Shown one piece after another: positions 3,451-62,957 of a DNA stretch of 64,000 nucleotides. The DNA is from Aspidapion aeneum (lineage: Eukaryota; Arthropoda; Insecta; Coleoptera; Brentidae), in contig OY755042.1 of the NCBI GenBank assembly GCA_963576565.1, positions 14,607,272 to 14,671,271 of the forward strand, in the 5' to 3' direction. The stretch's first letter is position 1. Every line of letters begins with the position of its first letter. The translations under genes were made by a program, and so were the position numbers. Under the pieces are notes generated by a model, which was not told where the DNA came from, did not search any database, and worked only from the letters and a program-made list of their open reading frames with translations.

Positions 3451-3484
<34 letters not shown>

Positions 3485-3485
3485 A

Positions 3486-3516
<31 letters not shown>

Positions 3517-4095
3517 GTGTCTGTATGTCTGTCTGTAACGACCAACGCGCATAACTCAAAAACGGCTTGCCCGATTTTAATAAAATTTGGTACCCAGGCT
3601 GGGTTTTGGGTCGAGATGGTCCCATTTAAAAATGAACAAAATCCACCAAGCACAAGCCAAATAAACGGGTGGGGGTAGATTTCAAAAATTAGAGTTTATG
3701 AAAAAATATGGCTTGTGTGATATCAAACGAAAGGTAATTGAGTCTGGAGTTAAGCAAAATACATTTTAGTTTATTTAAAAAAAGGAGGGGGGGGGTAAAT
3801 TTCAAAAATTAGTGTTTAAGTGGAAATATGGCGTGTGTGATATCAAACGAAAGGTAATTGAGTCTGGCGTTAAACTAAATACATTTTATTTTAAAAAAAA
3901 AGGGTGGGGGTAGATTTGAAAAATTAGAGTTTAAGTCAAAACATGGCTTGTGTGGTATCAAACGAAAGGTAATTGAGTCTGGAGTTCAATAAAACATACT
4001 TCAGTTTTTAGTTATATTAGCTTTCACGTAGATACACTATAACTATAGTACCCAGTGTGAGCTTAGGTGCCCATAGATTGGCAGAGTATTTTTTT
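3311..4095 (+). mobile_element. Helitron-like (HINE/DINE-type) element, copy E1
   Basis: Begins TTAGCTCACACATATACTAT with a subterminal palindrome (AGCTCACAC...GTGTGAGCT). A core follows with a (CTGT)n microsatellite at about 3449-3535, then the block 'AACGACCAACGCGCATAACTC'. Three diverged internal ~80-bp repeats come next ('TATCAAACGAAAGGTAATTGAG'). The second subterminal hairpin (ACTATAACTATAGTACCCAGTGTGAGCT) and the end GGCAGAGTATTTT close it. Eight copies share this plan. Subterminal inverted repeats, a CTGT tract and insertion in T-rich sites are typical of Helentron-associated short elements. The MITE alternative is not excluded. No coding capacity. Confidence 0.7.
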
Positions 4096-7863: not shown

Positions 7864-8572
7864 TTAGCTCACACATATACTATACTATAGTAGTGTGAGC
7901 TTTGGTGATCCTAATTTTTTCGAGAAAAAAAAGTTGCTCCGATTTCAAAATTTTTTATATATCTTTGCGTTTCAGATGATTTTGAAACTTTTTTGTTGCG
8001 CCGTCTGTCTGTCTGTAACGACCAACGCGCATAACTCAAAAACCGCTTGGCCGATTTTAATGAAATTTGGTACCTAGGCTGGGTTTTGGGCCGAGATGGT
8101 CCCATTTATAAATGAACAAAATCCACCGAGCACAAACCAAATAAAAGGGTGGGGGTTGATTTCAAAAATGAGAGTTTATGGAAAAATATGGCGTGTGTGA
8201 CATCAAACGAAAGGTAATTAAGTCTGGAGTTCAACAAAATACATTTTAATTTATTTAAAAAAAAAAAGGTGGGGGTATATTTCAAAAATTAGAGTTTAAG
8301 TGAAAAAATGGCGTGTGTGATATCAAACGAAAGGTAATTGAGTCCGGAGTTTAACAAAATACATTTTAGTTTTTGTTTTTTAAGGGTAGGGGTAGATTTC
8401 AAAAATTTGATTTTAAGTCAAAACATGGCTTGTGTGGTATCAAACAAAAGGTAATTTAGTCCGGAGTTGAATAAAATATATTTTAGTTTTTATTTATATT
8501 AGCTCACACGTACACTATAACTATAGTACCTAGTGTGAGCTTAGAGGCCCATATATTGGCAGAGTATTTTTT
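7864..8572 (+). mobile_element. Helitron-like element, copy E2
   Basis: Complete by the family plan: TTAGCTCACACATATACTAT start, subterminal palindrome, core, internal repeats, second hairpin (8506-8541) and GGCAGAGTATTTT end. The CTGT tract is reduced to about three units (near 8003-8015), compared with more than 15 in E1 and E3. This shows how fast the tract changes length. Confidence 0.7.
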
Positions 8573-9098: not shown

Positions 9099-9156
<58 letters not shown>

Positions 9157-9852
9157 GTGTCTGTATGTCTGTCTGTAACGACCAACGCGCATAACTCAAA
9201 AACCGCTTGCCCGATTTTAATGAAATTTGGTACCCAGGCTGGGTTTTGGGTCGAGATGGTCCCATTTAAAAATGAACAAAATCCACCGAACACAAGCCAA
9301 ATAAAAGGGTGGGGGTAGATTTCAAAAATTAGAGTTTATGAAAAAATTTGGCGTGTGTGATATCAAACGAAAGGTAATTGAGTCTGGAGTTAAACAAAAT
9401 ACATTTCAGTTTATTTAAAAAAAAAGGGGGGGGTGTAAATTTCAAAAATTAGTGTTTAAGTGGAAATATGGCGTGTGTGATATCAAACGAAAGGTAATTG
9501 AGTCTGGAGTTAAACAAAATACATTTTAGTTTATTTAAAAAAAGGGGGGGGGGTAAATTTCAAAAATTAGTGTTTAAGTGGAAATATGGCGTGTGTGATA
9601 TCAAACGAAAGGTAATTGAGTCTGGAGTTAAACAAAATACATTTTAGTTTTAAAAAAAAGGGTGGGGGTAGATTTGAAAAATTAGAGTATAAGTCAAAAC
9701 ATGGCTTGTGTGGTATCAAACGAAAGGTAATTGAGTCTGGAGTTCAATAAAACATACTTCAGTTTTTAGTTATATTAGCTTTCACGTAGATACACTATAA
9801 CTATAGTACCCAGTGTGAGCTTAGGTGCTCATAGATTGGCAGAGTATTTTTT
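8958..9852 (+). mobile_element. Helitron-like element, copy E3
   Basis: Longest copy. The CTGT tract spans about 9100-9175. It carries one extra internal ~120-bp repeat relative to E1 (the G-run plus 'GTAAATTTCAAAAATTAGTG' block occurs twice, at about 9430 and 9547). It is very close to E1 in the tract and right end, so E1 and E3 are sister copies. The SVCLSVCL ORFs here are microsatellite translation, not protein. Confidence 0.7.
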
Positions 9853-9921: not shown

Positions 9922-10082
9922 TTAGCATTGGTCAATATCGGTAGAATCGACTGCCATAAGGAGTCTGTAATATGGGTCATCCCTGACAGCCCTAATCCCC
10001 AAAGCTGATGACCATGCTTGCACAAAAACTTGTATATAGCATCCTCTGTAAGATTGTCTGAACTGTCAAGATCTAGAGCTAC
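9922..10082 (-). CDS. F-box/LRR protein, sixth shared exon
   Basis: 161 bp, phase 0 in and phase 2 out. Acceptor TTTTTCAG at 10090-10083 and donor GTAAGT at 9921-9916. It encodes VALDLDSSDNLTEDAIYKFL, then a GLSGMTHITD segment and ILPILTNAK, i.e. one LRR of the cysteine-containing/F-box LRR type (LxLDxSxNLTD). The hammerhead array begins only 68 bp upstream of this acceptor. Too short and split for an ORF search, but phases fit on both sides. Confidence 0.88.
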
Positions 10083-10306
10083 CTGAAAAATATATTGATT
10101 ACAATAAACATTTTAGGAATTGTAATCATAGGTAAGTTAATTTATAATATTAACAAACGTGGAATTTCGTACCCGTGAATTTAAAAATCAAACAAGTTTC
10201 GTGGCTAATCGGGCAAAAAGGAGTTTTTTTGTTTCCCTTATATTTTTCCGTGGGTAGCCTGAAAGCTAAACCTCACGGGGGTCCAAGATCTAATGGACAC
10301 CTAATA

Positions 10307-10354
10307 AGTGTTGACAGTTAACCGTTTCGTCCTTATGGGACTCCTCAGAACACT
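10307..10354 (-). ncRNA. type I hammerhead ribozyme, copy 1
   Basis: On the minus strand, stem I AGTGTT/AACACT (6 bp) is followed by core CUGAGGA. Stem II GUCC/GGAC has loop CAUAA; then core GAA, and stem III ACGG/CUGU with loop UUAA (one G-U pair). The cleavage triplet is GUC. All invariant core positions are present. Predicted cleavage lies between 10313 and 10312. Sense to the host gene. Confidence 0.85.
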
Positions 10355-10826
10355 GCTGGTCGATGTGACAAATCTTGCGAAGTTAATCAGACGGTTTTGT
10401 CTCTAATTAAATGTAATTAGTGAGCGAACTATAGCAAGAGGCGCCATCTACCGAGATACGAGAGAAACAAAAAAACCAAAAGCAGGCGAAAGAAAACACT
10501 GCTATACAATATCGATCAATGAAAAGATCGAATGCAAATAAAAGAAAACAACTATAGTCCGTGACCTACGACAGCTCTTTGTCTTTCAGGCCGGATCAAC
10601 ACAGATTGCATTTTTACCCGTCTTCAAGACAGTGAGCGTCAATCAACGGAATTTTTAAGCCGAATAATACTAACAAACGTGGAATTTCGTACCCGTGAAT
10701 TTAAAAATCAAACAAGTTTCGTGGCTAATCGGGCAAAAAGGAGTTTTTTTGTTTCCATTATATTTTTCCGTGGGTAGCCTGAAAGCTAAACCTCACGGGG
10801 GTCCAAGATCTAATGGACACCTAATA

Positions 10827-10874
10827 AGTGTTGACAGTTAACCGTTTCGTCCTTATGGGACTCCTCAGAACACT
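10827..10874 (-). ncRNA. type I hammerhead ribozyme, copy 2
   Basis: Identical in all 48 positions to copy 1, with the same intact core and stems. Predicted cleavage after the GUC, between 10833 and 10832 on the minus strand, exactly one 520-nt monomer from copy 1. Confidence 0.85.
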
Positions 10875-11346
10875 GCTGGTCGATGTGACAAATCTTGCGA
10901 AGTTAATCAGACGGTTTTGTCTCTAATTAAATGTAATTAGTGAGCGAACTATAGCAAGAGGCGCCATCTACCGAGATACGAGAGAAACAAAAAAACCAAA
11001 AGCAGGCGAAAGAAAACACTGCTATACAATATCGATCAATGAAAAGATCGAATGCAAATAAAAGAAAACAACTATAGTCCGTGACCTACGACAGCTCTTT
11101 GTCTTTCAGGCCGGATCAACACAGATTGCATTTTTACCCGTCTTCAAGACAGTGAGCGTCAATCAACGGAATTTTTAAGCCAAATAATACTAACAAACGT
11201 GGAATTTCGTACCCGTGAATTTAAAAATCAAACAAGTTTCGTGGCTAATCGGGCAAAAAGGAGTTTTTTTGTTTCCCTTATATTTTTCCGTGGGTAGCCT
11301 GAAAGCTAAACCTCACGGGGGTCCAAGATCTAATGGACACCTAATA

Positions 11347-11394
11347 AGTGTTGACAGTTAACCGTTTCGTCCTTATGCGACTCCTCAGAACACT
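11347..11394 (-). ncRNA. type I hammerhead ribozyme, copy 3 (stem II variant)
   Basis: One base differs from the other array copies: stem II is GUCG/GGAC, so its loop-proximal C-G pair becomes G-G. The conserved core is untouched. It may fold with a 3-bp stem II and be weaker. Predicted cleavage between 11353 and 11352. Confidence 0.8.
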
Positions 11395-11866
11395 GCTGGT
11401 CGATGTGACAAATCTTGCGAAGTTAATCAGACGGTTTTGTCTCTAATTAAATGTAATTAGTGAGCGAACTATAGCAAGAGGCGCCATCTACCGAGATACG
11501 AGAGAAACAAAAAATCCAAAAGCAGGCGAAAGAAAACACTGCTATACAATATCGATCAATGAAAAGATCGAATGCAAATAAAAGAAAACAACTATAGTCC
11601 GTGACCTACGACAGCTCTTTGTCTTTCAGGCCGGATCAACACAGATTGCATTTTTACCCGTCTTCAAGACAGTGAGCGTCAATCAACGGAATTTTTAAGC
11701 TAAATAATACTAACAAACGTGGAATTTCGTACCCGTGAATTTAAAAATCAAACAAGTTTCGTGGCTAATCGGGCAAAAAGGAGTTTTTTTGTTTCCCTTA
11801 TATTTTTCCGTGGGTAGCCTGAAAGCTAAACCTCACGGGGGTCCAAGATCTAATGGACACCTAATA

Positions 11867-11914
11867 AGTGTTGACAGTTAACCGTTTCGTCCTTATGGGA
11901 CTCCTCAGAACACT
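11867..11914 (-). ncRNA. type I hammerhead ribozyme, copy 4
   Basis: Intact core, stems I-III and GUC site, matching copy 1. Predicted cleavage between 11873 and 11872 on the minus strand. Confidence 0.85.
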
Positions 11915-12391
11915 GCTGGTCGATGTGACAAATCTTGCGAAGTTAATCAGACGGTTTTGTCTCTAATTAAATGTAATTAGTGAGCGAACTATAGCAAGAG
12001 GCGCCATCTACCGAGATACGAGAGAAACAAAAAAAAAAAACCAAAAGCAGGCGAAAGAAAACACTGCTATACAATATCGATCAATGAAAAGATCGAATGC
12101 AAATAAAAGAAAACAACTATAGTCCGTGACCTACGACAGCTCTTTGTCTTTCAGGCCGGATCAACACAGATTGCATTTTTACCCGTCTTCAAGACAGTGA
12201 GCGTCAATCAACGGAATTTTTAAGCCAAATAATACTAACAAACGTGGAATTTCGTACCCGTGAATTTAAAAATCAAACAAGTTTCGTGGCTAATCGGGCA
12301 AAAAGGAGTTTTTTTGTTTCCCTTATATTTTTCCGTGGGTAGCCTGAAAGCTAAACCTCACGGGGGTCCAAGATCTAATGGACACCTAATA

Positions 12392-12439
12392 AGTGTTGAC
12401 AGTTAACCGTTTCGTCCTTATGGGACTCCTCAGAACACT
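12392..12439 (-). ncRNA. type I hammerhead ribozyme, copy 5
   Basis: Intact copy in the truncated fifth unit, 15 bp before the inversion point. Predicted cleavage between 12398 and 12397. It faces copy 6 (12728-12775) in opposite orientation, 289 bp away. Confidence 0.85.
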
Positions 12440-12727
12440 GCTGGTCGATGTGACTTGAAGACGGGTAAAAATGCAATCTGTGTTGATCCGGCCTGAAAGA
12501 CAAAGAGCTGTCGTAGGTCACGGACTATAGTTGTTTTCTTTTATTTGCATTCGATCTTTTCATTGATCGATATTGTATAGCAGTGTTTTCTTTCGCCTGC
12601 TTTTGGTTTTTTTGTTTCTCTCGTATCTCGGTAGATGGCGCCTCTTGCTATAGTTCGCTCACTAATTACATTTAATTAGAGTCAAAACCGTCTGATTAAC
12701 TTCGCAAGATTTGTCACATCGACCAGC

Positions 12728-12775
12728 AGTGTTCTGAGGAGTCCCATAAGGACGAAACGGTTAACTGTCAACACT
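12728..12775 (+). ncRNA. type I hammerhead ribozyme, copy 6
   Basis: First copy of the inverted part, readable directly on the plus strand: AGTGTT, CTGAGGAG, TCCCATAAGGAC, GAAACGG, TTAACTGTC, AACACT. Predicted cleavage between 12769 and 12770. Antisense to the host gene. Confidence 0.85.
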
Positions 12776-13247
12776 TATTAGGTGTCCATTAGATCTTGGA
12801 CCCCCGTGAGGTTTAGCTTTCAGGCTACCCACGGAAAAATATAAGGGAAACAAAAAAACTCCTTTTTGCCCGATTAGCCACGAAACTTGTTTGATTTTTA
12901 AATTCACGGGTACGAAATTCCACGTTTGTTAGTATTATTTGGCTTAAAAATTCCGTTGATTGACGCTCACTGTCTTGAAGACGGGTAAAAATGCAATCTG
13001 TGTTGATCCGGCCTGAAAGACAAAGAGCTGTCGTAGGTCACGGACTATAGTTGTTTTCTTTTATTTGCATTCGATCTTTTCATTGATCGATATTGTATAG
13101 CAGTGTTTTCTTTCGCCTGCTTTTGGTTTTTTTGTTTCTCTCGTATCTCGGTAGATGGCGCCTCTTGCTATAGTTCGCTCACTAATTACATTTAATTAGA
13201 GACAAAACCGTCTGATTAACTTCGCAAAATTTGTCACATCGACCAGC

Positions 13248-13295
13248 AGTGTTCTGAGGAGTCCCATAAGGACGAAACGGTTAACTGTCAACACT
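13248..13295 (+). ncRNA. type I hammerhead ribozyme, copy 7
   Basis: Second inverted copy, identical to copy 6. Predicted cleavage between 13289 and 13290, exactly 520 nt after the copy 6 site, so a 520-nt monomer would be released from a plus-strand transcript. Confidence 0.85.
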
Positions 13296-13559
13296 TATTA
13301 GGTGTCCATTAGATCTTGGACCCCCGTGAGGTTTAGCTTTCAGGCTACCCACGGAAAAATATAAGGGAAACAAAAAAACTCCTTTTTGCCCGATTAGCCA
13401 CGAAACTTGTTTGATTTTTAATTTATAATATTTGACCTTGAAGTGCAATAGAACTTGGGAGTGAGATTTCTATCGAAAACACTCACAGAAGCATTCTCAT
13501 TACCATTAAATTTATGTCAGATGTTTAATGATAAAAATGTCATTTTGTATTATTATTAT

Positions 13560-13790
13560 AATTTCTATTTGGTCCAAATAGTATCATTTTTTACAAAAAA
13601 ACAGCGTGCGTAAAAAAAATTTTCACGCACGCCAAACCAGTTTTTTACGCACGCCGTGCGTGAAAATATTTTTTTACGCACAGCATGCGGGAAGTTGAAC
13701 TTTCCACATGAAAATTGGTGCGGAAAAAAGTGTTTTACGCTCGCAAGTAGGAAAAAGTAATAAAAACTTAACAAAACCCAAGTGACACGT
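13560..13790. repeat. GCGTGCGTAAAA hairpin cluster
   Basis: Short inverted motifs around TTTTTTACGCACGC and GCGTGCGTAAAAAA, with a self-complementary ACGCACGCCGTGCGTG core (13646-13661) and further TTTTACGC copies. It can form several nested hairpins. Similar CCGCACGC motifs recur at 31110-31450. The two short minus-strand ORFs here are artefacts of the repeat. Confidence 0.5.
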
Positions 13791-16820: not shown

Positions 16821-17540
16821 AAATACTCTGCCAATATATGGGCCCCTAAGCTCACACTAGGTACTATAGTTATAGTTTACGTGTGAGCTAATATAACTAA
16901 AAACTGAAATATATTTTATTCAACTCCAGACTAAATTACCTTTTGTTTGATACCACACAAGCCCTGGTTTGTCTTAAACTCAAATTTTTAAAATCTACCC
17001 CACCCTTAAAAAAAACAAAAACTATAATGTATTTTGTTAAACTCCGGACTCAATTACCTTTCGTTTGATATCACACACGCCATATTTTCACTTAAACTCT
17101 AATTTTTTAAATATACACCCACCCTTTTTTTAAAATAAATTAAAATGTATTTTGTTTAACTCCAGACTCAATTACCTTTCGTTTGATATCACACACGCCA
17201 TATTTGCACATAAACTCTAATTTTTTAAATCTACCTCCACCCTTTTATTCGGTTTGTGTTCGGCGGATTTTGTTCATTTTTAAATGGGACCATCTCGACC
17301 CAAGACCCAGCCTAGGTACCAAATTTCATTAAAATCGGCCAAGCGGTTTTTGAGTAATGCGCGTTGGTCGTTACAGACATACAGACAGACAGACAGACAA
17401 ACGGCACAACAAAAAAGTTTCAAAATCATCTGAAACGCAAAGATATATAAAAATTTTTGAAATCGGAGCAACTTTTTTTTTCTCGAAAAAATTAGGATCA
17501 CCAAAGCTCACACTACTATAGTATAGTATATGTGTTGGCT
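16821..17540 (-). mobile_element. Helitron-like element, copy E4 (first of a tandem set)
   Basis: Inverted orientation: AAATACTCTGCCAATATATG at the left, CTGT tract as ACAGACAG near 17380, end ATATGTGTTGGCT in place of the usual ATATGTGTGAGCTAATA. Inserted in the RT tail. More diverged from E5 and E6 than those are from each other. Confidence 0.7.
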
Positions 17541-18389
17541 AAAAATCCGTTGGACAAAGATGCTTTGTATATTTATGTACCAGTGTATTTCAAAAATTCA
17601 GATTTATTAAGAACTACACAGTCGTTACAAACCTTTAAAAAGTCATCAAAGGTCATGCTTTCAAAGGAAATACTCTGCCAATATATGGGCCCCTAAGCTC
17701 ACACTAGGTACTATAGTTATAGTGTACGTGTGAGCTAATATAACTAAAAACTGAAATATATTTTATTTAACTCCAGACTAAATTACCTTTTGTTTGATAC
17801 CACACAAGCCATGTTTTGACTTAAACTCAAATTTTTTAAATCTACCCCCACCCTTAAAAAAAACAAAAAACTAAAATGTATTTTGTTAAACTCCGGACTC
17901 AATTACCTTTCGTTTGATATCACACACGCCATATTTTCACTTAAACTCTAATTTTTAAAATATACCCCCACCCTTTTTTTTAAATAAATTAAAATGTATT
18001 TTGTTTAACTGCAGACTCAATTACCTGTCGTTTGATATCACACACGCCATATTTTCACATAAACTCTAATTTTTGAAATCTACCCCCACCCTTTTATTTG
18101 GTTTCTGTTCGGTGGATTTTGTTCATTTTTAAATGGGACCATCTCGACCCAAGACCCAGCCTAGGTACCAAATTTCATTAAAATCGGCCAAGCGGTTTTT
18201 GAGTAATGCGCGTTGGTCGTTACAGACATACAGACAGACAGACAGACAAACGGCACAACAAAAAAGTTTCAAAATCATCTGAAACGCAAAGATATATAAA
18301 AATTTTTGAAATCGGAGCAACTTTTTTTTTCTCGAAAAAATTAGGATCACCAAAGCTCACACTACTATAGTATAGTATATGTGTTGGCT
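17541..18389 (-). repeat. 849-bp tandem unit 1: captured RT flank plus Helitron-like copy E5
   Basis: 17541-17667 is 127 bp of RT-tail coding DNA beginning AAAAATCCGTTGG. 17668-18389 is a full element copy with the altered end GTTGGCT. The next unit starts exactly 849 bp later with the same flank. The two units are nearly identical by eye, which indicates recent duplication. Confidence 0.8.
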
Positions 18390-19241
18390 AAAAATCCGTT
18401 GGACAAAGATGCTTTGTATATTTATGTACCAGTGTATTTCAAAAATTCAGATTTATTAAGAACTACACAGTCGTTACAAACCTTTAAAAAGTCATCAAAG
18501 GTCATGCTTTCAAAGGAAATACTCTGCCAATATATGGGCCCCTAAGCTCACACTAGGTACTATAGTTATAGTGTACGTGTGAGCTAATATAACTAAAAAC
18601 TGAAATATATTTTATTTAACTCCAGACTAAATTACCTTTTGTTTGATACCACACAAGCCATGTTTTGACTTAAACTCAAATTTTTTAAATCTACCCCCAC
18701 CCTTAAAAAAAACAAAAAACTAAAATGTATTTTGTTAAACTCCGGACTCAATTACCTTTCGTTTGATATCACACACGCCATATTTTCACTTAAACTCTAA
18801 TTTTTAAAATATACCCCCACCCTTTTTTTTAAATAAATTAAAATGTATTTTGTTTAACTGCAGACTCAATTACCTTTCGTTTGATATCACACACGCCATA
18901 TTTTCACATAAACTCTAATTTTTGAAATCTACCCCCACCCTTTTATTTGGTTTCTGTTCGGTGGATTTTGTTCATTTTTAAATGGGACCATCTCGACCCA
19001 AGACCCAGCCTAGGTACCAAATTTCATTAAAATCGGCCAAGCGGTTTTTGAGTTATGCGCGTTGGTCGTTACAGACATACAGACAGACAGACAGACAGAC
19101 GGCGCAACAAAAAAGTTTCAAAATCATCTGAAAAGCAAAGATATATAAAAAATTTTGAAATCGGAGCAACTTTTTTTTTCTCGAAAAAATTAGGATCACC
19201 ATAGCTCACACTACTATAGTATAGTATATGTGTGAGCTAAT
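18390..19241 (-). repeat. tandem unit 2: captured RT flank plus Helitron-like copy E6
   Basis: 18390-18516 repeats the 127-bp RT flank. 18517-19241 is the last element copy and ends with the canonical ATATGTGTGAGCTAATA. Only this copy has the standard family end, so the array has one normal terminus and two read-through junctions. Confidence 0.8.
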
Positions 19242-21550: not shown

Positions 21551-22297
21551 TTAGCTCACACATATACTATACTATAGTAGTGTGAGCTATGGTGATCCTA
21601 ATTTTTTCGAGAAAAAAAAAGTTGCTCCGATTTCAAAAATTTTTATATATCTTTGCGTTTCAGATGATTTTGAAACTTTTTTGTTGCGCCGTCTGTCTGT
21701 CTGTCGGTCTGTCTGTATGTCTGTCTGTCTGTCTGTCTGTATGTCTGTAACGACCAACGCGCATAACTCAAAAACCGCTTGGCCGATTTTAATGAAATTT
21801 GGTACCTAGGCTGGGTCTTGGGTCGAGATGGTCCCATTTAAAAATGAACAAAATCCACCGAACAGAAACCAAATAAAAGGGTGGGGGTAGATTTCAAAAA
21901 TTAGAGTTTATGTGAAAATATGGCGTGTGTGATATCAAACGAAAGGTAATTGAGTCTGCAGTTAAACAAAATACATTTTAACTTATTTAAAAAAAAAGGT
22001 GGGGGTATATTTTAAAAATTAGAGTTTAAGTGAAAATATGGCGTGTGTGATATCAAACGAAAGGTAATTGAGTCCGGAGTTTAATAAAATACATTTTTGT
22101 TTTTTTTAAGGGTGGGGGTAGATTTCAAAAATTTGAGTTTAAGTCAAAACATGGCTTGTGTGGTATCAAACAAAAGGTAATTTAGTCTGGAGTTAAATAA
22201 AATATATTTCAGTTTTTAGTTATATTAGCTCACACGTACACTATAACTATAGTACCTAGTGTGAGCTTAGGGGCCCATATATTGGCAGAGTATTTTT
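21551..22297 (+). mobile_element. Helitron-like element, copy E7
   Basis: Complete copy, close in sequence to E5/E6 ('GAACAGAAACCAAATAAAAG', 'CTGCAGTTAAAC'), so they are probably from one subfamily. The CTGT tract (21691-21748) is interrupted by CGGT and ATGT. Lies in the intron between shared exons 3 and 4. Confidence 0.7.
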
Positions 22298-36640: not shown

Positions 36641-38020
36641 CTAATTAATCAAACTTCTTCTAAAGTATTGAAATTTCTCTTTACCAAGCGGTTTTGTAAA
36701 AATATCAGCACAATTTTCATTGGTAGAAACATATTGCAAAGAAATAATCTTATTGTTGCACAATTCCTTTATAAAATGATATTTGATTTCAATGTGTTTG
36801 CTTCTTTTAGAATTCACAAAATTTTTAACTAATGAAATTGCACTAAGATTGTCCAATTTTAAAATAACTGTTTTTGACTCACCGAATTCTGACACAATAC
36901 CTTTTAAATTTACAAGTTCTTGTGCTGCTGCTCCGGCTGAAATATACTCTGCCTCCATTGAGGACAGGGCTACACAGTTTTGCTTCTTGGAGTGCCATGC
37001 TATAACATTTCCATTATGAAAACCAACAAATCCATTTATACTTTTTCTGGTTTGTCTGTCGCCACCCCAATCAGCATCACACATTCCCTCTAAACCGCTG
37101 TCTCCTTTCTTAAATTCCATTCCATAATCTTTTGTTGCGCTCAGATAACGTAAAATTCTTTTTGCAGCTTTCCATAACTGAGTTGTTGGCTTGTCAAGAT
37201 ATCTACTTAAATATGATACGCTATAAGCGATATCTGGTCTGCTTACTATAGATAAGTACATCAAGCTGCAGACTAATCTTCTATATGGAATGTTTTCCAA
37301 AATTGGCTTATCGTTAGCTTGGAAATTCTGTTCCATTGGTGTAGCTATTGGTCGACATTCTGTCATATTAAACTCTTTTAACAATCTTAAAATCATTTTT
37401 GTTTGAGTCACTTTGATTCCATATTGAGTTTTTAAGATTTCCATTCCCAAAAATGATGTGACTTTGCTTATGTCTTTGACTTTGAATTCTTCATATAAAT
37501 TTTGCACCAACTTATCAACTTTCCAATCTGGTCCGGTAATCAAAGCATCGTCTACAAAAAGTACTAAGTAAACATCTTCATTTGTGTACAAACAATAGTC
37601 ATACTCTGACCTTTTAAAGTTTAGTTTCAGCATCACTTGATTGAATTTGTTGTTCCAGCATTTTGGTGCATTTCTTAGGCCATATAAAGCTCTATTTAAC
37701 TTGTAATACTTTGAGCTATCTTGCAGTCCTTCTGGCTTCTTGATATATACCTCATTGTCCAATGAACCATTTAGAAATGCTGTTGGAACATCAATTTGAC
37801 GTAGTGTCCAGTTCTTCTGAACAGAAACTGATATCAAAATTTTAATTGTTGGAAGTCGACACACAGGTGCATAACTAAATTCTTCACCTTCGTTGGGTGC
37901 TTGAAACCCTTTGGCTACCAATCGCGCCTTTTGTTTACCATTATCTTTGATCTTAAATAGCCAACGAGTGTCAATAGCTATTTTATCATCAGGTAGCTCG
38001 GCTGGTGTCCATGTTTCCAA
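36641..38020 (-). CDS. Copia RT and RNase H (C-terminal half of pol)
   Basis: 459 codons in one frame. RT begins with the linker LPDDKIAIDTRWLF and KARLVAKGF (residues 8-39). It includes the palm segment RQIDVPTAFLNGSL (about 74-87), YGLRNAPKCW and the FVDD active site (155-158). RNase H follows, with CDADWGGDRQTRKS (Asp near 313), SSMEAEYISA (catalytic Glu near 351) and IEIKYHFIKE. The first Met (38020) is not a real start. The frame joins the upstream reading one base out of phase, so it should be part of one polyprotein. Function: copies the element RNA into DNA in particles. Confidence 0.92.
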   Translation of the reverse strand: METWTPAELPDDKIAIDTRWLFKIKDNGKQKARLVAKGFQAPNEGEEFSYAPVCRLPTIKILISVSVQKNWTLRQIDVPTAFLNGSLDNEVYIKKPEGLQDSSKYYKLNRALYGLRNAPKCWNNKFNQVMLKLNFKRSEYDYCLYTNEDVYLVLFVDDALITGPDWKVDKLVQNLYEEFKVKDISKVTSFLGMEILKTQYGIKVTQTKMILRLLKEFNMTECRPIATPMEQNFQANDKPILENIPYRRLVCSLMYLSIVSRPDIAYSVSYLSRYLDKPTTQLWKAAKRILRYLSATKDYGMEFKKGDSGLEGMCDADWGGDRQTRKSINGFVGFHNGNVIAWHSKKQNCVALSSMEAEYISAGAAAQELVNLKGIVSEFGESKTVILKLDNLSAISLVKNFVNSKRSKHIEIKYHFIKELCNNKIISLQYVSTNENCADIFTKPLGKEKFQYFRRSLIN

Positions 38021-40494
38021 ATTCTTATGAGTTCTAACTCATTGTTAATAGCTTCTTGCCATTCACTGTATTTTATAGCTTCTTTAAAAGTTTTAGGTTC
38101 ACCTTCATTTGTTGTTAATAGGCAATAAGCTATACAGCAATCATATTCATCCAAGTATTTTGGTTTAATTATATTTCTACCAGCTCTGGATGTTTGTGGT
38201 TCTGACATATCTGCATCCTCATATTCACTTTGTTCATCTAATTCTTCTTCATTATTTTGAGATTCATCATTTTCTGCCTTATTTGGGTTTTCTTTTTGAT
38301 TTGGATTGTTTGCTTTATTTTCTTGAATACTTTCAATTTGACTTGTTACTTTTATGACATTTTCTGTGTTTTTGGTGTTATCATTTTCTGTATTCAGTTT
38401 TAATTCCATTGTGTTTTCATCAAAACGTACATCTCTGGATTTTATGACTTTATTTTCCTCTGGTATCCACAATCGGTATCCACCACCGCAGTAACCAACC
38501 ATAATTGCTTTTCTGGCCTTTGGTTCTAGTTTTCTTCTTTTCGGCATAGCTGTGTACCAAGATCTACATCCAAAAACTCTCAGTTTACTGATGTCTGTTC
38601 TGCCATTGTATATTTGTGATGGAGTTTGACCTCTGGGTAGTACTGAGGTTGGTGTTCTATTTAGTTCATAGGTAGAACATCTTAATGCTTCTCCCCACAA
38701 AGTTTTTGGTACACCTGATTCAATTATCTTTGTTCTTATCATGTTCAAAAGAGTTCTATTCATTCTTTCAGATTTTCCATTTGACTGTGGGCTGTATGGT
38801 ACTGTATATTCTAATTTTAGACCTTTTTGCTTACAAAAATTCTTGAAATTGTTTGATGTTACTTCTCCACCATTATCCAATCTTAATCTTTTTATTTTCA
38901 CATTTTGCTGCCTTTCAAATTCTTGAATATACTGTATAAGATTATTTTCAGCTTCATTTTTGCTTTTTAAAACTTTCGTCACCAAAAAATGTGAATAATC
39001 TTCCAAGATTACTTGAAAATATTTACCACCGTCTATTGTACTTGGGTATATAGGGCCACATACGTCACTATGTACAAGCTCTCCTAGTTGCTTAGTATAC
39101 TGTTCATTTCGTTTAAAAGGTAATCTAGTAGCTTTACCTTCCATGCATGGTGGACATATTTCTTTCATCGGTTTTAGTCCAAGTTGTACCATAGCATCTT
39201 TTCCTGCATGACCCAGTCTTCTGTGCCATTTTTGCTCTTCTGTCATAACGTTGCATTCGGCATTTTGTTTCACAATTTCATCAACTTGTAATACATACAA
39301 TCCATTCTTCTTTTCACAAATTAATTGAAAATTCTTGCCAGAAATACATGCTTTATCTTTTTCTACAATTATACTGTGCCCTCTTGATGTCATTTTTGAA
39401 GCAGATATGAGGTTATGTTTTATTCCAGGTACAATAAGTGCTTCTATTATTAAAATTTTATTTTGACATTTTGTTTTTAGTTTACCTATCTTGTTTGATC
39501 TTAATATTTGACCATTTGCAATATGTATCTCTACAGAATTATCTATTTTTTTAATATCATACATATATTTTTCTAATTTTTCTTCCACAAAGTGATTACT
39601 TGCTCCAGAATCCATGACAAAACTTAATATATTTTGATCCTCTTTACACACATTTGCTGCATACAGTATTATGTTTTCTTCTGCCACTTGTGCATCTTGC
39701 CTTGTGTAATCAGTTTTTGATATGGCGACTTGTTTTCTGCGATAATTTCCTCTTGCATTTCCGCGATGACCTCTATAGTTTCCTCTAGGCTTACCTCTCG
39801 TGTGATTTCTACCACTACTTTGTTCTCCATTTCTTTTAGGACAGTAGAACTGAATGTGCAGTGTACTGCCACATGTAAAACATCCTTTTGTGCTTGCTTT
39901 AAACATTACTTCATCTCCATTCTCTTCTTTAGCTTTAATCTTTAACTCTTCATCCAAAAGTCTTGCTTTCACAAAATCTATCTTAACATCTGTGATGGTT
40001 TCTATTGCTGTGACTACAGTGTCATACTTTGATGGCAACGATAGTAGTAAAAGGCATACCTTATCTCCATCAACTATATTTGATCTTTGGTCTTTAAGCT
40101 CTCTTATAATAGTTTCGAATTTCAAAAAATGATCTTCTAACTTTCCATCTTCTGCATGATTTAAACTTAGAAGTTTTCTCCACAACGACAGTTTTGTGAA
40201 TGCACTAGCTCTTACAAACACTTTTCTTAAATTTTCTAACTGCTGTTTTGCACTTAGACAATCTTTAATCAAATCTAAATATTTGTCTGAAATTCCCTGA
40301 ACAATAAATGATTGCGCCCTGACATCTGCTTGAAAGAATTTATTCTTTTCTTCAGTAGTTGCACTATCTGATGGTGATTCTTCTAGAGCTTCACTGCACC
40401 CCTCTCTTTTCAGTATTAATTTCATCCTGAACTCCCAGTTATTGTAATTAGTTGCTTCTAGGATGGGGACAGAAACACTGTTCAAGACGGACAT
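37978..40494 (-). CDS. Copia Gag, protease and integrase (N-terminal part of polyprotein)
   Basis: 838 codons, ATG at 40494. Gag (1-about 260) has a CCHC knuckle CFTCGSTLHIQFYC at 205-218 and a basic Arg/Gly tail. Protease active site DSGAS is at 295-299. The integrase zinc site uses H424, H429 and CPPC (447-450). The catalytic triad is D477 (HSDVCGP), D540 (RLDNGGEV) and E576 (KSERMNR), with 35 residues between the last two. Then comes the acidic N/E-rich linker, and the frame runs out after IRIWKHGHQP. The RT half continues in another frame: a one-base deletion in an A/T run near 38025. Apart from that, the usual Copia length (about 1,300 aa) is kept. Confidence 0.93.
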   Translation of the reverse strand: MSVLNSVSVPILEATNYNNWEFRMKLILKREGCSEALEESPSDSATTEEKNKFFQADVRAQSFIVQGISDKYLDLIKDCLSAKQQLENLRKVFVRASAFTKLSLWRKLLSLNHAEDGKLEDHFLKFETIIRELKDQRSNIVDGDKVCLLLLSLPSKYDTVVTAIETITDVKIDFVKARLLDEELKIKAKEENGDEVMFKASTKGCFTCGSTLHIQFYCPKRNGEQSSGRNHTRGKPRGNYRGHRGNARGNYRRKQVAISKTDYTRQDAQVAEENIILYAANVCKEDQNILSFVMDSGASNHFVEEKLEKYMYDIKKIDNSVEIHIANGQILRSNKIGKLKTKCQNKILIIEALIVPGIKHNLISASKMTSRGHSIIVEKDKACISGKNFQLICEKKNGLYVLQVDEIVKQNAECNVMTEEQKWHRRLGHAGKDAMVQLGLKPMKEICPPCMEGKATRLPFKRNEQYTKQLGELVHSDVCGPIYPSTIDGGKYFQVILEDYSHFLVTKVLKSKNEAENNLIQYIQEFERQQNVKIKRLRLDNGGEVTSNNFKNFCKQKGLKLEYTVPYSPQSNGKSERMNRTLLNMIRTKIIESGVPKTLWGEALRCSTYELNRTPTSVLPRGQTPSQIYNGRTDISKLRVFGCRSWYTAMPKRRKLEPKARKAIMVGYCGGGYRLWIPEENKVIKSRDVRFDENTMELKLNTENDNTKNTENVIKVTSQIESIQENKANNPNQKENPNKAENDESQNNEEELDEQSEYEDADMSEPQTSRAGRNIIKPKYLDEYDCCIAYCLLTTNEGEPKTFKEAIKYSEWQEAINNELELIRIWKHGHQPSYLMIK

Positions 40495-40612
40495 GATTAC
40501 AGTTTTTCTGTTTTTTTTTTTTAATTTTTATAAGATTTTATGCCTGCTTTTTGGCCACTTTTTGCACTAATTACAGCACTCTGTTACGCCCTACTAACTG
40601 CCTATAGGTGCT

Positions 40613-43989: not shown

Positions 43990-46900
43990 GAACACCGCAA
44001 ACGTTTACACAGGACTTATGGGAAATTTTTGGCTGGGTGGAATAAGCTATAATTTTAGTATGTTATAGTAGGATATTTATCTAAAAAAATGTAAGTATAG
44101 TTAAATTTTTCTATGTACAGTTTTTGAGATATAAACGATCAAAGTTCGTTAAATGGTCGTTTTTGGGTATGTTCTAAAATTAATATCTCCTACATCTTAA
44201 CCGAATAAAATTCTTTGACTATCAAAATGACTTAGTAAAGGTCTAAGGATAAAGTCACTTATGTTGTCATTCTTGTCGATTTATTAAATAATATACGGGG
44301 GAAAGTCAAAAAAACATTTTTTTTATATCTGCACTATTACAGAATTTTTTAACTAGCACATTTTATTTTGGTACAGATTAATAGTTTTATATAATATTTA
44401 AAGAAAAAAAATATTTTTGTTTGTTGATTTTACTTTTATAGATATTAATTCTTTTATTGCAGTTATTTTTTCTTACTAAATAAAATTGACTTTAGCTGAT
44501 TTAAGCTGTTTTCCGTACGACAAAAATTAATTTGTTAAATATTTTGTAATAAAATACAGCTAAAGAATCTTTTTATTATATAAAAAAAATACTCTGCCAA
44601 TATATGAGCCCCTAAGATCACACTAGGTACTATAGTTATAGTGTACGTGCTAACATAACTAAAAACTGAAATATATTTTATTCAACTCCGGACTAAATGA
44701 CACTTTATTCAACTCCAGACTAAATTACATTTCGTTTAATACCACACAAGCCATGTTTTGACTTAAACTCAAATTTTTGAAATCTACCCCCACCCTTAAA
44801 AAAACAAAAACTAAAATGTATTTTGTTTAACTCCGGACTTAATTACCTTTCGTTTGATATCACACACGCCATATTTTCACGTAAACTCTAATTTTTTTAA
44901 TCTACCCCCACCCCTTTTATACAAAAGAAAATGAAATATATTTTGCTTAACTCTAGATTTAATTACCTTTCGTTTGATATCACACACGCCATATTTTCAC
45001 ATAAACTCTAATTTTTGAAATCTACCCCCACCTTGTGTTTGGTGGATTTTGTTCATTTTTAAATGGGCATCCCGACCCAAGACCCAGCCTAGGTACCAAA
45101 TTTCATTAAAATCGCCCAAGCGGTTTTTGAGTTATGCGCGTTGGTCGTTACAGACAGACAGACAGACATACAGACGGACAGACAGACAGACGGCGCAACA
45201 AAAAAGTTTCAAAATCATCGGAAACGCAAAGATATATAAAATTTTTTAAAATCGGAGCAACTTTTTTTTTCTCGATGACCATAGCTCACACTATTATCGT
45301 ATAGTATATGTGTGAGCTAATACTATAGCTTTTGGTTATGTCAAAGGGTCTTTAAAAAAATATATATATTTTTTTTGCTCTTAAATAATTCCTTAGTTAT
45401 GTTTGAAAAACGGCTCGGTGAATTTTAATTAAACTTTACCTGCTTATTTTTGTAACTTAGCGTCACACTAGGAAAATAGATGTTCTTTTTTTCTGTCTAG
45501 TTTTGAAGATATTAATTTTTGTATCTCTAATTATTCTTATATTTACAGGACAGCGATAAAAAAAAGGTATTTACCGCCCAATTTTTGCAGTACGTACCGA
45601 AATTCTAAACAAATATGAGCCAAAAGAGTAGAAAAATAAAATATATACAGGGCGTCTGAAGAAATAGGTTTATTTAATGCATGAGTTTTATTAGTATTAA
45701 TGCAGAACTTATTTTTTACTAGAAAATGTCAATAGTACGTAACTTTTTGTTAAGCACAAGCTATGGGTGTCATTCTCGGTATTTCCCGAAGCCTCTGTAG
45801 ACCAGCGTATCCTAGGATACTACTGTATACGCAAAAGTAGAGCAAGGACAGTAGGATGCTGCTCTCATATTTGCAGTGTACTATGGTACATAGGATACGC
45901 TCGTTATCAGGGGCATTTAAGGTACCCCAGGCAAAGTTTGCTTTAAAATATATTGGATGCCGCGCAAATAGACCACATAATATTTCTTATATAAGTTAAT
46001 TTCTTTAGTTATTTTCTAATTTAATATATTCCAGTTTATAGTTTAAAAAAGACGTTACTTATTACCATTATATTATTACTATTAAAATACTACAATAAAA
46101 CAAGCCTTTTCTTGAGACACCCTGTATATATTTTATTTTCCTACTGTTTTGGCTATTATTTCTTTAGAGTTTTGGTACGTACAGCAAAAATTGGGCGTTA
46201 AATGCCTTTTTTTTGTCGCCGTCCTGTAAATATAAGATAGAGCTACAAAAATTAATAACTTTAAAACTGGACATTGAAAAAAAAACAGGCAGGTAAAGTT
46301 TAATTAAAATTCATCGAGCCGCTTTCCAAAAATAAATTAAAAATTATATAAAGGCAAAAAAAAATATTTTTTTTAAAAGACCCTTGGACTTAACCAAAAG
46401 CTTTAAATAATAAAAAAAATTTTGGAGCTGTATTTTATTACAAAATATTTAACAAATTGATTTTTGTCATACGGAAATTAGCTTAAAACAGCTTAAGTCA
46501 AGTTTATTTAGTAAAAAAAAATACCTGCAATAAAAAAAATAATATCTGTAAAAGTGGGGGCAATCAAAAAACAAAAATATTTTTTTTCTATAAATATTAT
46601 ATAAAACTTTAAATTGTGCCAAAATAAAAAGTGCTAGTTATAAAATTCGGTAATAGTGCAGATATAAGAAAATGTTTTTTTGACTATCCCCCGTATATTA
46701 TTTATTAAATTGACAAGAATTACATCATAAGTGACTTTGTTTTTAGACATTTACTAACTCATTTTTATGGCCAATTAATTTTTTTCGGTCAAGATGTAAG
46801 TGTCATTATTATTAGTACATACACAAAACGACCATTTAACGAACTTTGACCGTTTATATCTCAAAAACTGTACATAGAAAACCTTCACTTTTCTCACATT

Positions 46901-54297: not shown

Positions 54298-55870
54298 TCA
54301 CGCTCGAGAAGCGGCAAGTGCGCGGAAATGTTGGTGTATGTTGGTTTTGAAACGGTTCAGGTTGTAACCTGCAAGGAAAACTGTCGCAGGGAGTTTACTC
54401 CACAACGATGCTGCTGTCCAGAGATATGAAATCTGATATAAAGAGGTTCTTGGTGTTTCTGTTTTGACAGTAAATTGATGGTTACCGTCTGTTTAACGTG
54501 TTCGCCTAGTAGGTGCAACTCCCGGGGGGATCATACGTGCCAACTCTTCAGAGCATTTTTCGTGATAATACCTGTAGAAGAGAGATAGATCGCCCACAGT
54601 TCTTCGATGTTCGAGACTATCCAAGCTACGGGTAAGTGCGGGGTCATTGATCAGCTTGATAGCTCGTTTTTGCACGGTGTTCAAAAGCATTAAGGTATGT
54701 TTGGGTGCCGCACTTCATATATGTGAGCAGTACACCATAGTTTGTCAAATTTGGGCTTTGTAGAGTGTCAGCAGTTGGCTTGGTGTATACAGATGTCTTG
54801 TACGGAATAGCACCCCAAGTTTTTGAGACGCCCTTTTAGCCTTATCTGCCACGTGACTGTGCCAAGACATGTTGGTCTCTGCAGTGACTCCTAAGATGTT
54901 CAACTGGGTCTGCAATGTGACAGCACTTCCAGATAGCATGATGCTTTGCTCACCGGTGCTGGTCTTTTTTGAAAACAGGGCAGCTTCGGTTTTCTGCGCG
55001 TTGAACTGTACAAGGTTTTTGTTGCCCCAGTCCCCTATTATCTCCAGGTCGTTATTTATCTGCGATACTTGAGTTAGTCTAAGATGATGGAATTCACGTG
55101 CGGAGAGACATGTGGGTGGTATGAGTGAGGAGACTACATTGCCATCATCTGCAAAGCAATAAAGTGGATTTACTGTTTTATCTAGAAGATCATTTATGTA
55201 AATCAGAAAAAGTGTTGGCAACAGGATTGCTCCCTGTGGCACACCAGCATTTATTTGGTAAGAGTTGGAGTTCTGGCCATCCAGTGCAACATAAATGGAT
55301 CTATCCTTAAGGTAACTCTCAAACCAAGTGCAAAGTTTCGGCGTCAATCCCATTGCTTTGAGCTTGTTGAGCAGATTTTCATGCCAGACTTAATCGAATG
55401 CTTTAGATATAACTAAGGCAATTGTTCTTGTTTTATCCCGCAACTCAATCGCTTTTTACCATAAGTGAGTGACGTAAATCGCCAGTTGACCTATATTTTC
55501 AAAATCCGTATCGCTTGTCGTTGATAATATTGTACTTTTCCAAGTACTTGGTTAGGTGATTGTTCACAACTCCTTCCATTACTTTTGATATCACCGGAAG
55601 TAGAGCAATTGGTCTATAGTTTAACGGATCTGTCTTTTTTCCTTTCTTTGGAATGGGTTGTACTGCTGCAAACTTCCATGGTGATGGATATACTCCTGTA
55701 AGATAAATTGAATAATTCAGCGAAAGTTGGGGTGAGTTCGTTAGGACAATTTTTGAGTACTATCGCGGGAATGCCATCTGGACCCATTGCTTTATTTGTA
55801 TCCAACTTTTTGTCATGTCACTGTCAGTTTGGACATATAAACTTACAGGACCTTTAGCTAACCGTTCCTT
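54298..55870 (-). pseudogene. non-LTR retrotransposon RT, 5'-truncated and decayed
   Basis: From 5' to 3': NKAMGPDGIPAIVLKNCPNE (about 55800), a degraded middle with AFD-like and YR-x-I blocks, then an open stretch (55353-54745). That stretch has TPKLCTWFESYLKDRSIYVA, NAGVPQGAILLPTLFLIYIN and active site FADD (LYCFADDGNVVSS), then LNILGVTAETNMSWHSHVAD and ASQKLGVLFRTRHLY. After a stop, NAFEHRAKTSY-type and VQKRAIKLINDPALTRSLDS follow. The tail is SLWSKLPATVFLAGYNLNRF with ALAASRA and TGA at 54300-54298. RT palm and thumb are complete in outline. Endonuclease and gag are absent. Clade not certain (Jockey/CR1 group). Confidence 0.85.
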
Positions 55871-62394: not shown

Positions 62395-62957
62395 ACTGAT
62401 CCAAGATGAGTTAAATGCTCATAAAAACCAGACTTGGGAATTTATTCCTAGAGATAAAGATTGGAAATCATAGATTCAAAATGGGTTTTCAACGAAGAGA
62501 GGATGCTAAACTGATCAAGAAAGCTAGATTAGTTGCCAGGGGCTTTTTTCAAAGTGACATCCAAGAGGAAATTTATTCACCGGTTGCTAGGATGCTCACT
62601 ATACGATTGTTGCTATCTTTAAGTGTACAAGAACATCCTGACATACACCAACTAGATGTCAAATGTGCCTTCCTTAATGAGACTCTCAGTGAACCTGTTT
62701 ACATGGAGATTCTTGATGGGTTGGAAAAATCCCCTGACTATGTATGTAAATTGAGAAAATTACTATATGGACTCCGTCAAGCACCAAAATTTTGGAAGGA
62801 TGAACTTAATAATTATTTATTGTCTATAGGATTTTGTAGGTCAAAATCTGATCCTTGCTTATATTTTTGTCAAAATGTATTTTTTTTAGTTTATGTAGAT
62901 GATATTATCTTACTTTCGAATAGTGATTCTCAAATGAAAAGTGTTAAACACTCACAG
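62395..62957 (+). pseudogene. Copia RT fragment (second lineage), truncated
   Basis: Starts in one frame as IQDELNAHKNQTWEFIPRDK, shifts, then KKARLVARGFFQSDIQEEIY, VARMLTIRLLLSLSVQEH, HQLDVKCAFLNETLSEPVYM, YGLRQAPKFWKDELNNYLLS and the intact active site YVDD (FLVYVDDIILL). It stops at 62957, shortly after the palm, so the thumb and RNase H are missing. Sequence differs strongly from the 36-40 kb element (GLRQAPKFW versus GLRNAPKCW), so it is a different family. No LTR nearby. The end abuts a poly-A-like run and a dispersed repeat. Confidence 0.85.

Follow-up and report, generated by a model that had tools for sequence, protein, structure and literature searches.

Head-to-head arrays of a 520-nt hammerhead retrozyme in Aspidapion aeneum, probably inserted by a Penelope-like enzyme

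The window analysed here is a stretch of 64,000 nucleotides from the genome of the beetle Aspidapion aeneum (Insecta; Coleoptera; Brentidae), taken from positions 14,607,272 to 14,671,271 of contig OY755042.1 in assembly GCA_963576565.1. It contains an array of 520-bp units with type I hammerhead ribozymes. Judged from its sequence, this array is one inserted non-autonomous element, with two arms between TTAATTTATAATATT duplications. It is probably a non-autonomous animal retrozyme with a unit of 520 nt, inserted in the Penelope-like manner from an RNA circle on both strands of the target. The architecture, the two end sites, the duplications, the variants shared between units and the presence of Penelope-like elements in the genome are seen directly.

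Architecture of the element

Positions in the unit are given as U1 to U520, counted from the predicted cleavage site, with a real unit (10833-11352, minus strand) as reference. The first-pass annotation of this DNA had described a single tandem run of satellite units with a period of 520 nt. The period holds in general and fails for a single unit of 525 bp. The run is not single: two arms meet head to head at the junction given in Table 1, and each arm has its RNA 3' side outermost, ending at a different point of the unit from the other arm. The label satellite gives way to that of a dispersed mobile element, as 17 of the 29 loci described below are two-armed with canonical ends, most of them with a measurable target-site duplication. 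The retrozyme-like nature of the unit had been recognised correctly; the tandem units are non-coding, hammerhead-bearing and dispersed. The earlier description contained neither the inversion nor the target-site duplication, and said nothing of the alternative pair of ends or of a connection with a Penelope-like mechanism. No stop-to-stop frame of at least 130 amino acids, nor any of at least 95 amino acids, overlaps 10137-13432, and a repeat search over 10001-13600 listed the unit families alone.

End sites, target-site duplications and arm junctions

The 29 loci compared were the window, 20 loci around the best matches of the unit, two two-armed loci found by a search with the unit, and six short two-armed loci from the list of U42-65 matches. 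Eight of the 29 were picked for being two-armed; the end sites played no part in the choice. At 17 of the 29 loci each arm has a canonical end (Table 1). All 17 pair one end near U125 with one end near U159, sites that lie about 34 nt apart, and the same site is never used twice. Ends given by BLAST fall at U123-135 and U156-179, blurred because element and target happen to agree in some letters there; ends trimmed by eye fall at about U123-131 and U157-161. Fifteen of the 17 loci are clearly resolved, the others being L053, with its left end in AT-rich sequence, and L054, with its right end at the fetch boundary, U156. If each arm chose freely and equally between the two sites, the pairing seen in 15 of 15 loci would have a probability of 0.5 to the 15th power. 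The motif GUUUG is found at, or within a few nucleotides of, both end sites.

The target-site duplications are generally about 12 bp long, and measure 10-15 bp in all 11 two-ended loci of the first two sets. Each duplicated string, identified by eye, was located at both ends by a script. An automatic 25-nt window gave 10-15 bp in 10 of these 11 loci and 6 bp in L046, where the longer duplication was read by eye only. A control with mismatched loci reached a maximum of 9 bp over 110 pairs. The AT content of the duplications is 84%, against 64% for the loci. Among the short loci, the duplications measure 10-12 bp in L055, L057 and L058, 7 bp in exact form or 12 bp with one indel in L056, and 8 bp in L053, while that of L054 lies beyond measurement. 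The outer ends in the loci displayed showed no poly(A) tail.

Sixteen arm junctions were compared, with L053-L058 left out. Nine share 2-6 nt between the arms, four share none and two carry one extra base; the arms meet at non-corresponding positions of the unit. The sixteenth junction, in L050, has a 1,566-bp piece of a long interspersed nuclear element (LINE) with a poly(A) end lying exactly between the arms (L050 1963-3528). A template jump during insertion is a possible origin of this piece. No duplication of the LINE itself was seen in the letters displayed at that locus, and by eye its open reading frame (ORF) closely resembles the LINE fragment of the window.

Table 1. Coordinates of the element in the window and membership of the two classes of loci
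Feature	Position	Strand	Remarks
Left copy of target-site duplication, TTAATTTATAATATT	10137-10151	.	11-15 bp, a few letters possibly the element's own
Left arm, ~4.4 tandem units	10152-12454	ribozyme sense -	outer end ~U161 (start site 2)
Type I hammerhead ribozyme 1, intact	10307-10354	-	RF00163 24.7 bits
Type I hammerhead ribozyme 2, intact	10827-10874	-	RF00163 24.7 bits
Type I hammerhead ribozyme 3, outer pair of stem II broken	11347-11394	-	RF00163 20.4 bits
Type I hammerhead ribozyme 4, intact	11867-11914	-	RF00163 24.7 bits
Type I hammerhead ribozyme 5, intact	12392-12439	-	RF00163 24.7 bits
Head-to-head arm junction	12451-12454	.	4-nt overlap TGAC
Right arm, ~1.9 tandem units	12451-13417	ribozyme sense +	outer end ~U125-131 (start site 1)
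Type I hammerhead ribozyme 6, intact	12728-12775	+	RF00163 24.7 bits
Type I hammerhead ribozyme 7, intact	13248-13295	+	RF00163 24.7 bits
Right copy of target-site duplication	13418-13432	.	15-bp direct repeat of 10137-10151
Two-ended loci			window, L031, L035, L040, L045, L046, L047, L049, L050, L051, L052, L053-L058
One-ended loci			L032, L033, L034, L036, L037, L038, L039, L041, L042, L043, L044, L048

Hammerhead ribozymes

All seven type I hammerheads, which lie between 10307 and 13295 (ribozymes 1-5 on the minus strand, 6 and 7 on the plus strand), were confirmed at the level of the sequence, and self-cleavage is predicted. In a search of 3.6 kb the Rfam model Hammerhead_1 (RF00163) matched all seven copies end to end, with an E value of 0.0073 for six of them and of 0.19 for the copy at 11347-11394. 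A default Rfam scan of the whole window listed nothing, because all seven copies, that at 10307-10354 included, fall short of the model's curated gathering score (34). The first-pass annotation had drawn the core, the GUC site, stem I, the GUCC/GGAC stem II and stem III correctly. Its statement that every unit is intact stands for six of the seven ribozymes, in which the stem pairs are complete; at 11347-11394 a C>G change breaks the outer pair of stem II. A pattern of 27 positions of the ribozyme core has 5,868 exact matches in the genome and none when reversed, so that hammerhead arrays of this kind are not due to chance.

Genome-wide family

The genome searched consists of 1.286 Gb in 149 contigs, the window lying on contig C5. 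With the 520-bp unit as query, at least 224 matches were obtained over many contigs (39 of 723 candidates scored). Orientation was examined in the first 100 places of two overlapping lists, both covering contig C1 only. In the core-pattern list 12 of 60 clusters are of mixed orientation, 11 of them minus then plus and one minus-plus-minus; in the U42-65 list 12 of 39 are mixed, all 12 minus then plus. The remaining clusters show a single orientation, and short second arms would escape these patterns. Genome-wide, U42-65 has 10,000 matches versus 7,694 for U175-198. This drop fits about 2,300 ends lying between the two stretches, the two sites taken together, and divergence may contribute part of it.

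The mean divergence from the reference unit is 0.57% (50,935 bp aligned), and in L040 only two substitutions occur in 2,719 bp. Because the divergence is so low, some of the insertions are recent. The family is that of a dispersed, probably recently active retrozyme.

Same-strand core spacings in the core-pattern list cluster at 513-516 and 518-519, which suggests at least two subfamilies of unit length. Copies of the unit about 71-81% identical, representing older relatives, occur in L036, L041 and L049, where one of them is head-to-head (L049 6444-6968). A very long two-armed array is found at C1:102140768-102153277, with 21 listed exact matches in one arm, two of whose spacings are irregular, and three in the other. 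A recent retrozyme insertion in L040 adjoins an ORF (L040 578-1243) with a match to PF21738, the double jelly roll-like domain of Pfam.

Variants and the nature of the template

Substitutions relative to the reference unit were counted wherever three or more units of a locus covered the position, in 23 loci less L048, which was dropped as a neighbouring duplicate of L038. Where both arms cover the position, eight variants occur in all units, nine in some and 121 in one; where one arm only covers it, the numbers are three, four and 50. In this count "all units" means both arms by construction, and the arms were therefore tested apart in the 29 loci less L048. There were 157 variants whose position had coverage in each arm; 12 of them occur in every covered unit of both arms, eight of the 12 with at least three units covered. 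In none of the 157 cases is a variant present in all units (two or more) of one arm and absent from the other.

This pattern fits the expectation from one circular template, or from sister circles of one source. A homogeneous linear multimer is also possible as a template. Variants common to all covered units of both arms strengthen the suggestion that the 520-nt monomers may circularise.

Search for a Penelope-like partner

Scoring of 150 among 633 candidates gave at least 91 genomic matches to the GIY-YIG domain. At one of them, L063, RVT_1 and GIY-YIG lie within one frame of 627 residues. This frame is flanked by 660-bp inverted repeats (L063 1-655 and 2524-3181, 98% identical, beside long TA runs), which overlap its start. 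A pattern search found hammerhead-like cores in L060, L061, L062 and L063; they are candidate minimal hammerheads, a label that follows the available part of PMC7761336, and an Rfam scan of these four Penelope-like loci gave no hammerhead hit.

Two candidate partners were rejected. Among the flanking ORFs, none of the 16 scanned (from 99 ORFs of at least 95 amino acids) has GIY-YIG. The LINE ORF that separates the two arms in L050 has the Pfam domain RVT_1 alone. The window element is no Penelope-like element proper, being a non-coding array without an encoded reverse transcriptase (RT) or GIY-YIG. The putative assignment to a Penelope-like enzyme rests on the insertion scar.

Proposed mechanism and alternatives

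In the proposed series of events, the transcript of an older array would be cut by its own hammerheads into 520-nt monomers, and one monomer would be closed into a circle. Circles of related retrozymes have been reported (PMC7229834, consulted in part). A Penelope-like protein, combining RT and GIY-YIG endonuclease, would make cuts staggered by about 12 bp in the two strands of an AT-rich target, and complementary DNA (cDNA) would be primed from both target ends on the circle, near U125 for one strand and near U159 for the other. Each cDNA would travel around the template, covering anything between a fraction of one turn and many turns, and on meeting the two would be joined, often at 2-6 nt of common sequence. 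Head-to-head arms between target-site duplications would be the outcome. We infer the circle, the identity of the enzyme and the order of these events.

The biochemical precedent is the Penelope-like protein of an anole, which in vitro cleaves and extends both strands, with a preference for AT-rich DNA. Its two internal start sites frame a tail of 30-40 nt (PMC11167929). In rotifers, the available text of PMC3846280 describes Penelope copies with head-to-head inverted pseudo-LTRs (LTR, long terminal repeat), a 31-bp tail on one inverted copy and duplications of 8-10 bp.

A more specific arrangement is put forward tentatively, as a possibility and not as an expectation. A dimer of the Penelope-like enzyme might sit on one circle with its two RTs about 34 nt apart. 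The two strands of a single staggered cut would each prime one RT, and the two RTs would travel round the circle simultaneously. If so, the regular pairing of site 1 with site 2 would be the footprint of the dimer, and the long-standing puzzles of Penelope tails, inverted pseudo-LTRs and tandem copies would be explained together.

Several observations weigh against insertion by a Penelope-like enzyme from a circle. At 12 of the 29 loci only one end is canonical, the opposite end is irregular, and no duplication could be found; two of these loci, L038 and L048, have a common flank and hence are not independent. Such loci may be damaged insertions or the product of a second route, and some rotifer Penelope copies likewise have no duplication (PMC3846280, in its available part). 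Nine variants in two-arm loci (seven of them in L047) are common to some units and not to all, as are four variants where coverage is confined to one arm; these partly shared variants count against a single circle, because a circle would need later conversion or repeated mutation to produce them. Stem I of the hammerhead is absent from the circular minimum-energy fold of one unit. A comparison of the unit with L059-L063, five of the at least 91 GIY-YIG matches, gave short AT-rich hits only and no convincing match. The two start sites seen in vitro showed no strand difference, in contrast to the strands of one insertion here, and ribozyme mutants were still inserted (PMC11167929).

Mobilisation of a linear multimeric transcript by a Penelope-like enzyme, in place of a circle, is rather unlikely. 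It would suit the use of unprocessed RNA by the anole protein in vitro and the indifference of insertion to ribozyme mutations (PMC11167929), and a homogeneous donor array would likewise give homogeneous daughters. Against it are the 12 variants found in every covered unit of both arms, with none fixed in one arm only, and the many private variants, 121 in two-arm loci. The 21 listed exact matches over 10.6 kb in one arm (C1:102140768-102151374) also count against it, because a self-cutting RNA would hardly stay so long. Self-priming, in which a Penelope-type cDNA folds back to give the inversion, would produce the same head-to-head orientation, and the rotifer authors favour it for the inversion, with junction palindromes and an antisense template (PMC3846280, as far as its available text goes). 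Here the arms meet at non-corresponding positions with an overlap of mostly 0-6 nt, which led to rejection of a self-priming palindrome, and the two arms start from separate sites, one at each duplicated end of the target; we regard self-priming as very improbable.

LINEs also show twin priming, and duplications of about this size. An APE-type (apurinic/apyrimidinic endonuclease) LINE protein might accordingly have moved linear multimeric retrozyme RNA, with the inversion arising by twin priming. Fragments of LINE-type RT and endonuclease lie near several loci, and the 1.6-kb LINE piece of L050 would be at home in such an event. The outer ends, however, both lie inside the unit, at two constant sites separated by about 34 nt, and show no poly(A) tail in the loci displayed; head-to-head order is the rule among the sampled mixed clusters. 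This origin is quite improbable. Tandem 520-bp units with a mean divergence of about 0.57% from one unit would be explained by a DNA satellite of the classic kind that spread through unequal exchange and circular DNA, its inversion being an error of replication. Such a satellite would not explain short arrays scattered over many contigs, arms that differ in their fixed ends, or junctions at non-corresponding positions. The simple satellite is contradicted by the duplications and the fixed end sites, and is hardly credible as an origin.

Relation to known elements

Animal retrozymes are known already, as is the suspicion that Penelope-like elements move them; the family described here shows the scar of Penelope copies on a non-coding unit. 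In the available parts of PMC7229834, PMC7761336 and PMC8969392 these elements are likely or strong candidate movers, on the basis of co-occurrence and shared hammerheads. The non-LTR retrozymes of animals described in the available part of PMC7229834 resemble the present element in the type I hammerhead of each tandem unit, the absence of coding sequence, the high copy number, target-site duplications of more than 4 bp and co-resident Penelope-like elements. The unit is longer here, 520 nt against the approximately 170-400 nt reported there. Head-to-head arrays with two alternative ends, as found here, also set the family apart from those retrozymes; the words "inverted" and "head-to-head" are absent from the main text of PMC7229834. 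In the literature searched, which covered few subscription papers, no description of head-to-head retrozyme arrays or paired start sites was found. Plant LTR retrozymes, as in the model proposed here, have an RNA circle processed by ribozymes as the likely intermediate. They differ in their type III hammerheads, LTRs, 4-bp duplications and Gypsy-type mover (PMC7229834 and PMC7761336, each in part).

Penelope-like elements have two internal start sites 30-40 nt apart, a range that takes in the spacing found in the window family. They encode an RT and a GIY-YIG endonuclease, in contrast to the non-coding window element. Inverted head-to-head ends, AT-rich targets and short duplications are common to both (PMC11167929; PMC3846280, in part). 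The hammerhead of the anole element Poseidon lies at the junction of pseudo-LTR and ORF, unlike that of the window element (PMC11167929).

Judged from its name, the repeat pDo500 of Dolichopoda has a unit of about 500 bp. Like the window element it is an insect repeat with a hammerhead, including a G-U pair in stem III; it is described as satellite DNA, the words "inverted" and "dispersed" are absent from the main text of PMC2837043 as available, and the likeness is one of description only. The same is true of the schistosome W-elements, satellite-like repeats of which some carry functional hammerheads and one possible target-site duplication is mentioned; no inverted two-arm design or paired start sites were seen in the available part of PMC8490949.

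With thousands of copies, many of those sampled having diagnostic ends, the question of a Penelope mover becomes testable from sequence in any retrozyme genome. These natural insertions also offer a means of studying how both strands of a target, together with a circular template, may serve a Penelope-like enzyme.

Other features of the window

Just outside the element, at 13600-13690, repeated inverted ACGCACGC/GCGTGCGT runs stand beside runs of A and T. Arrays with about three to four copies of a unit of 115-120 bp occur on both strands at 3451-3997, 8139-8496, 9099-9765 and 16899-17247, with further arrays of this unit at 17746-18099, 18595-18948, 21691-22218 and 44711-45191. Several of them adjoin a (GTCT)n or (ACAG)n microsatellite. 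Together they look like one dispersed non-autonomous element, perhaps akin to the DINE-1-like Helentrons. On the minus strand, a Copia-type element lies at 36641-40527 in two overlapping frames, gag/integrase and RVT_2, and a LINE RVT_1 fragment at 54745-55389; a second Copia RVT_2 fragment lies on the plus strand at 62415-62957.

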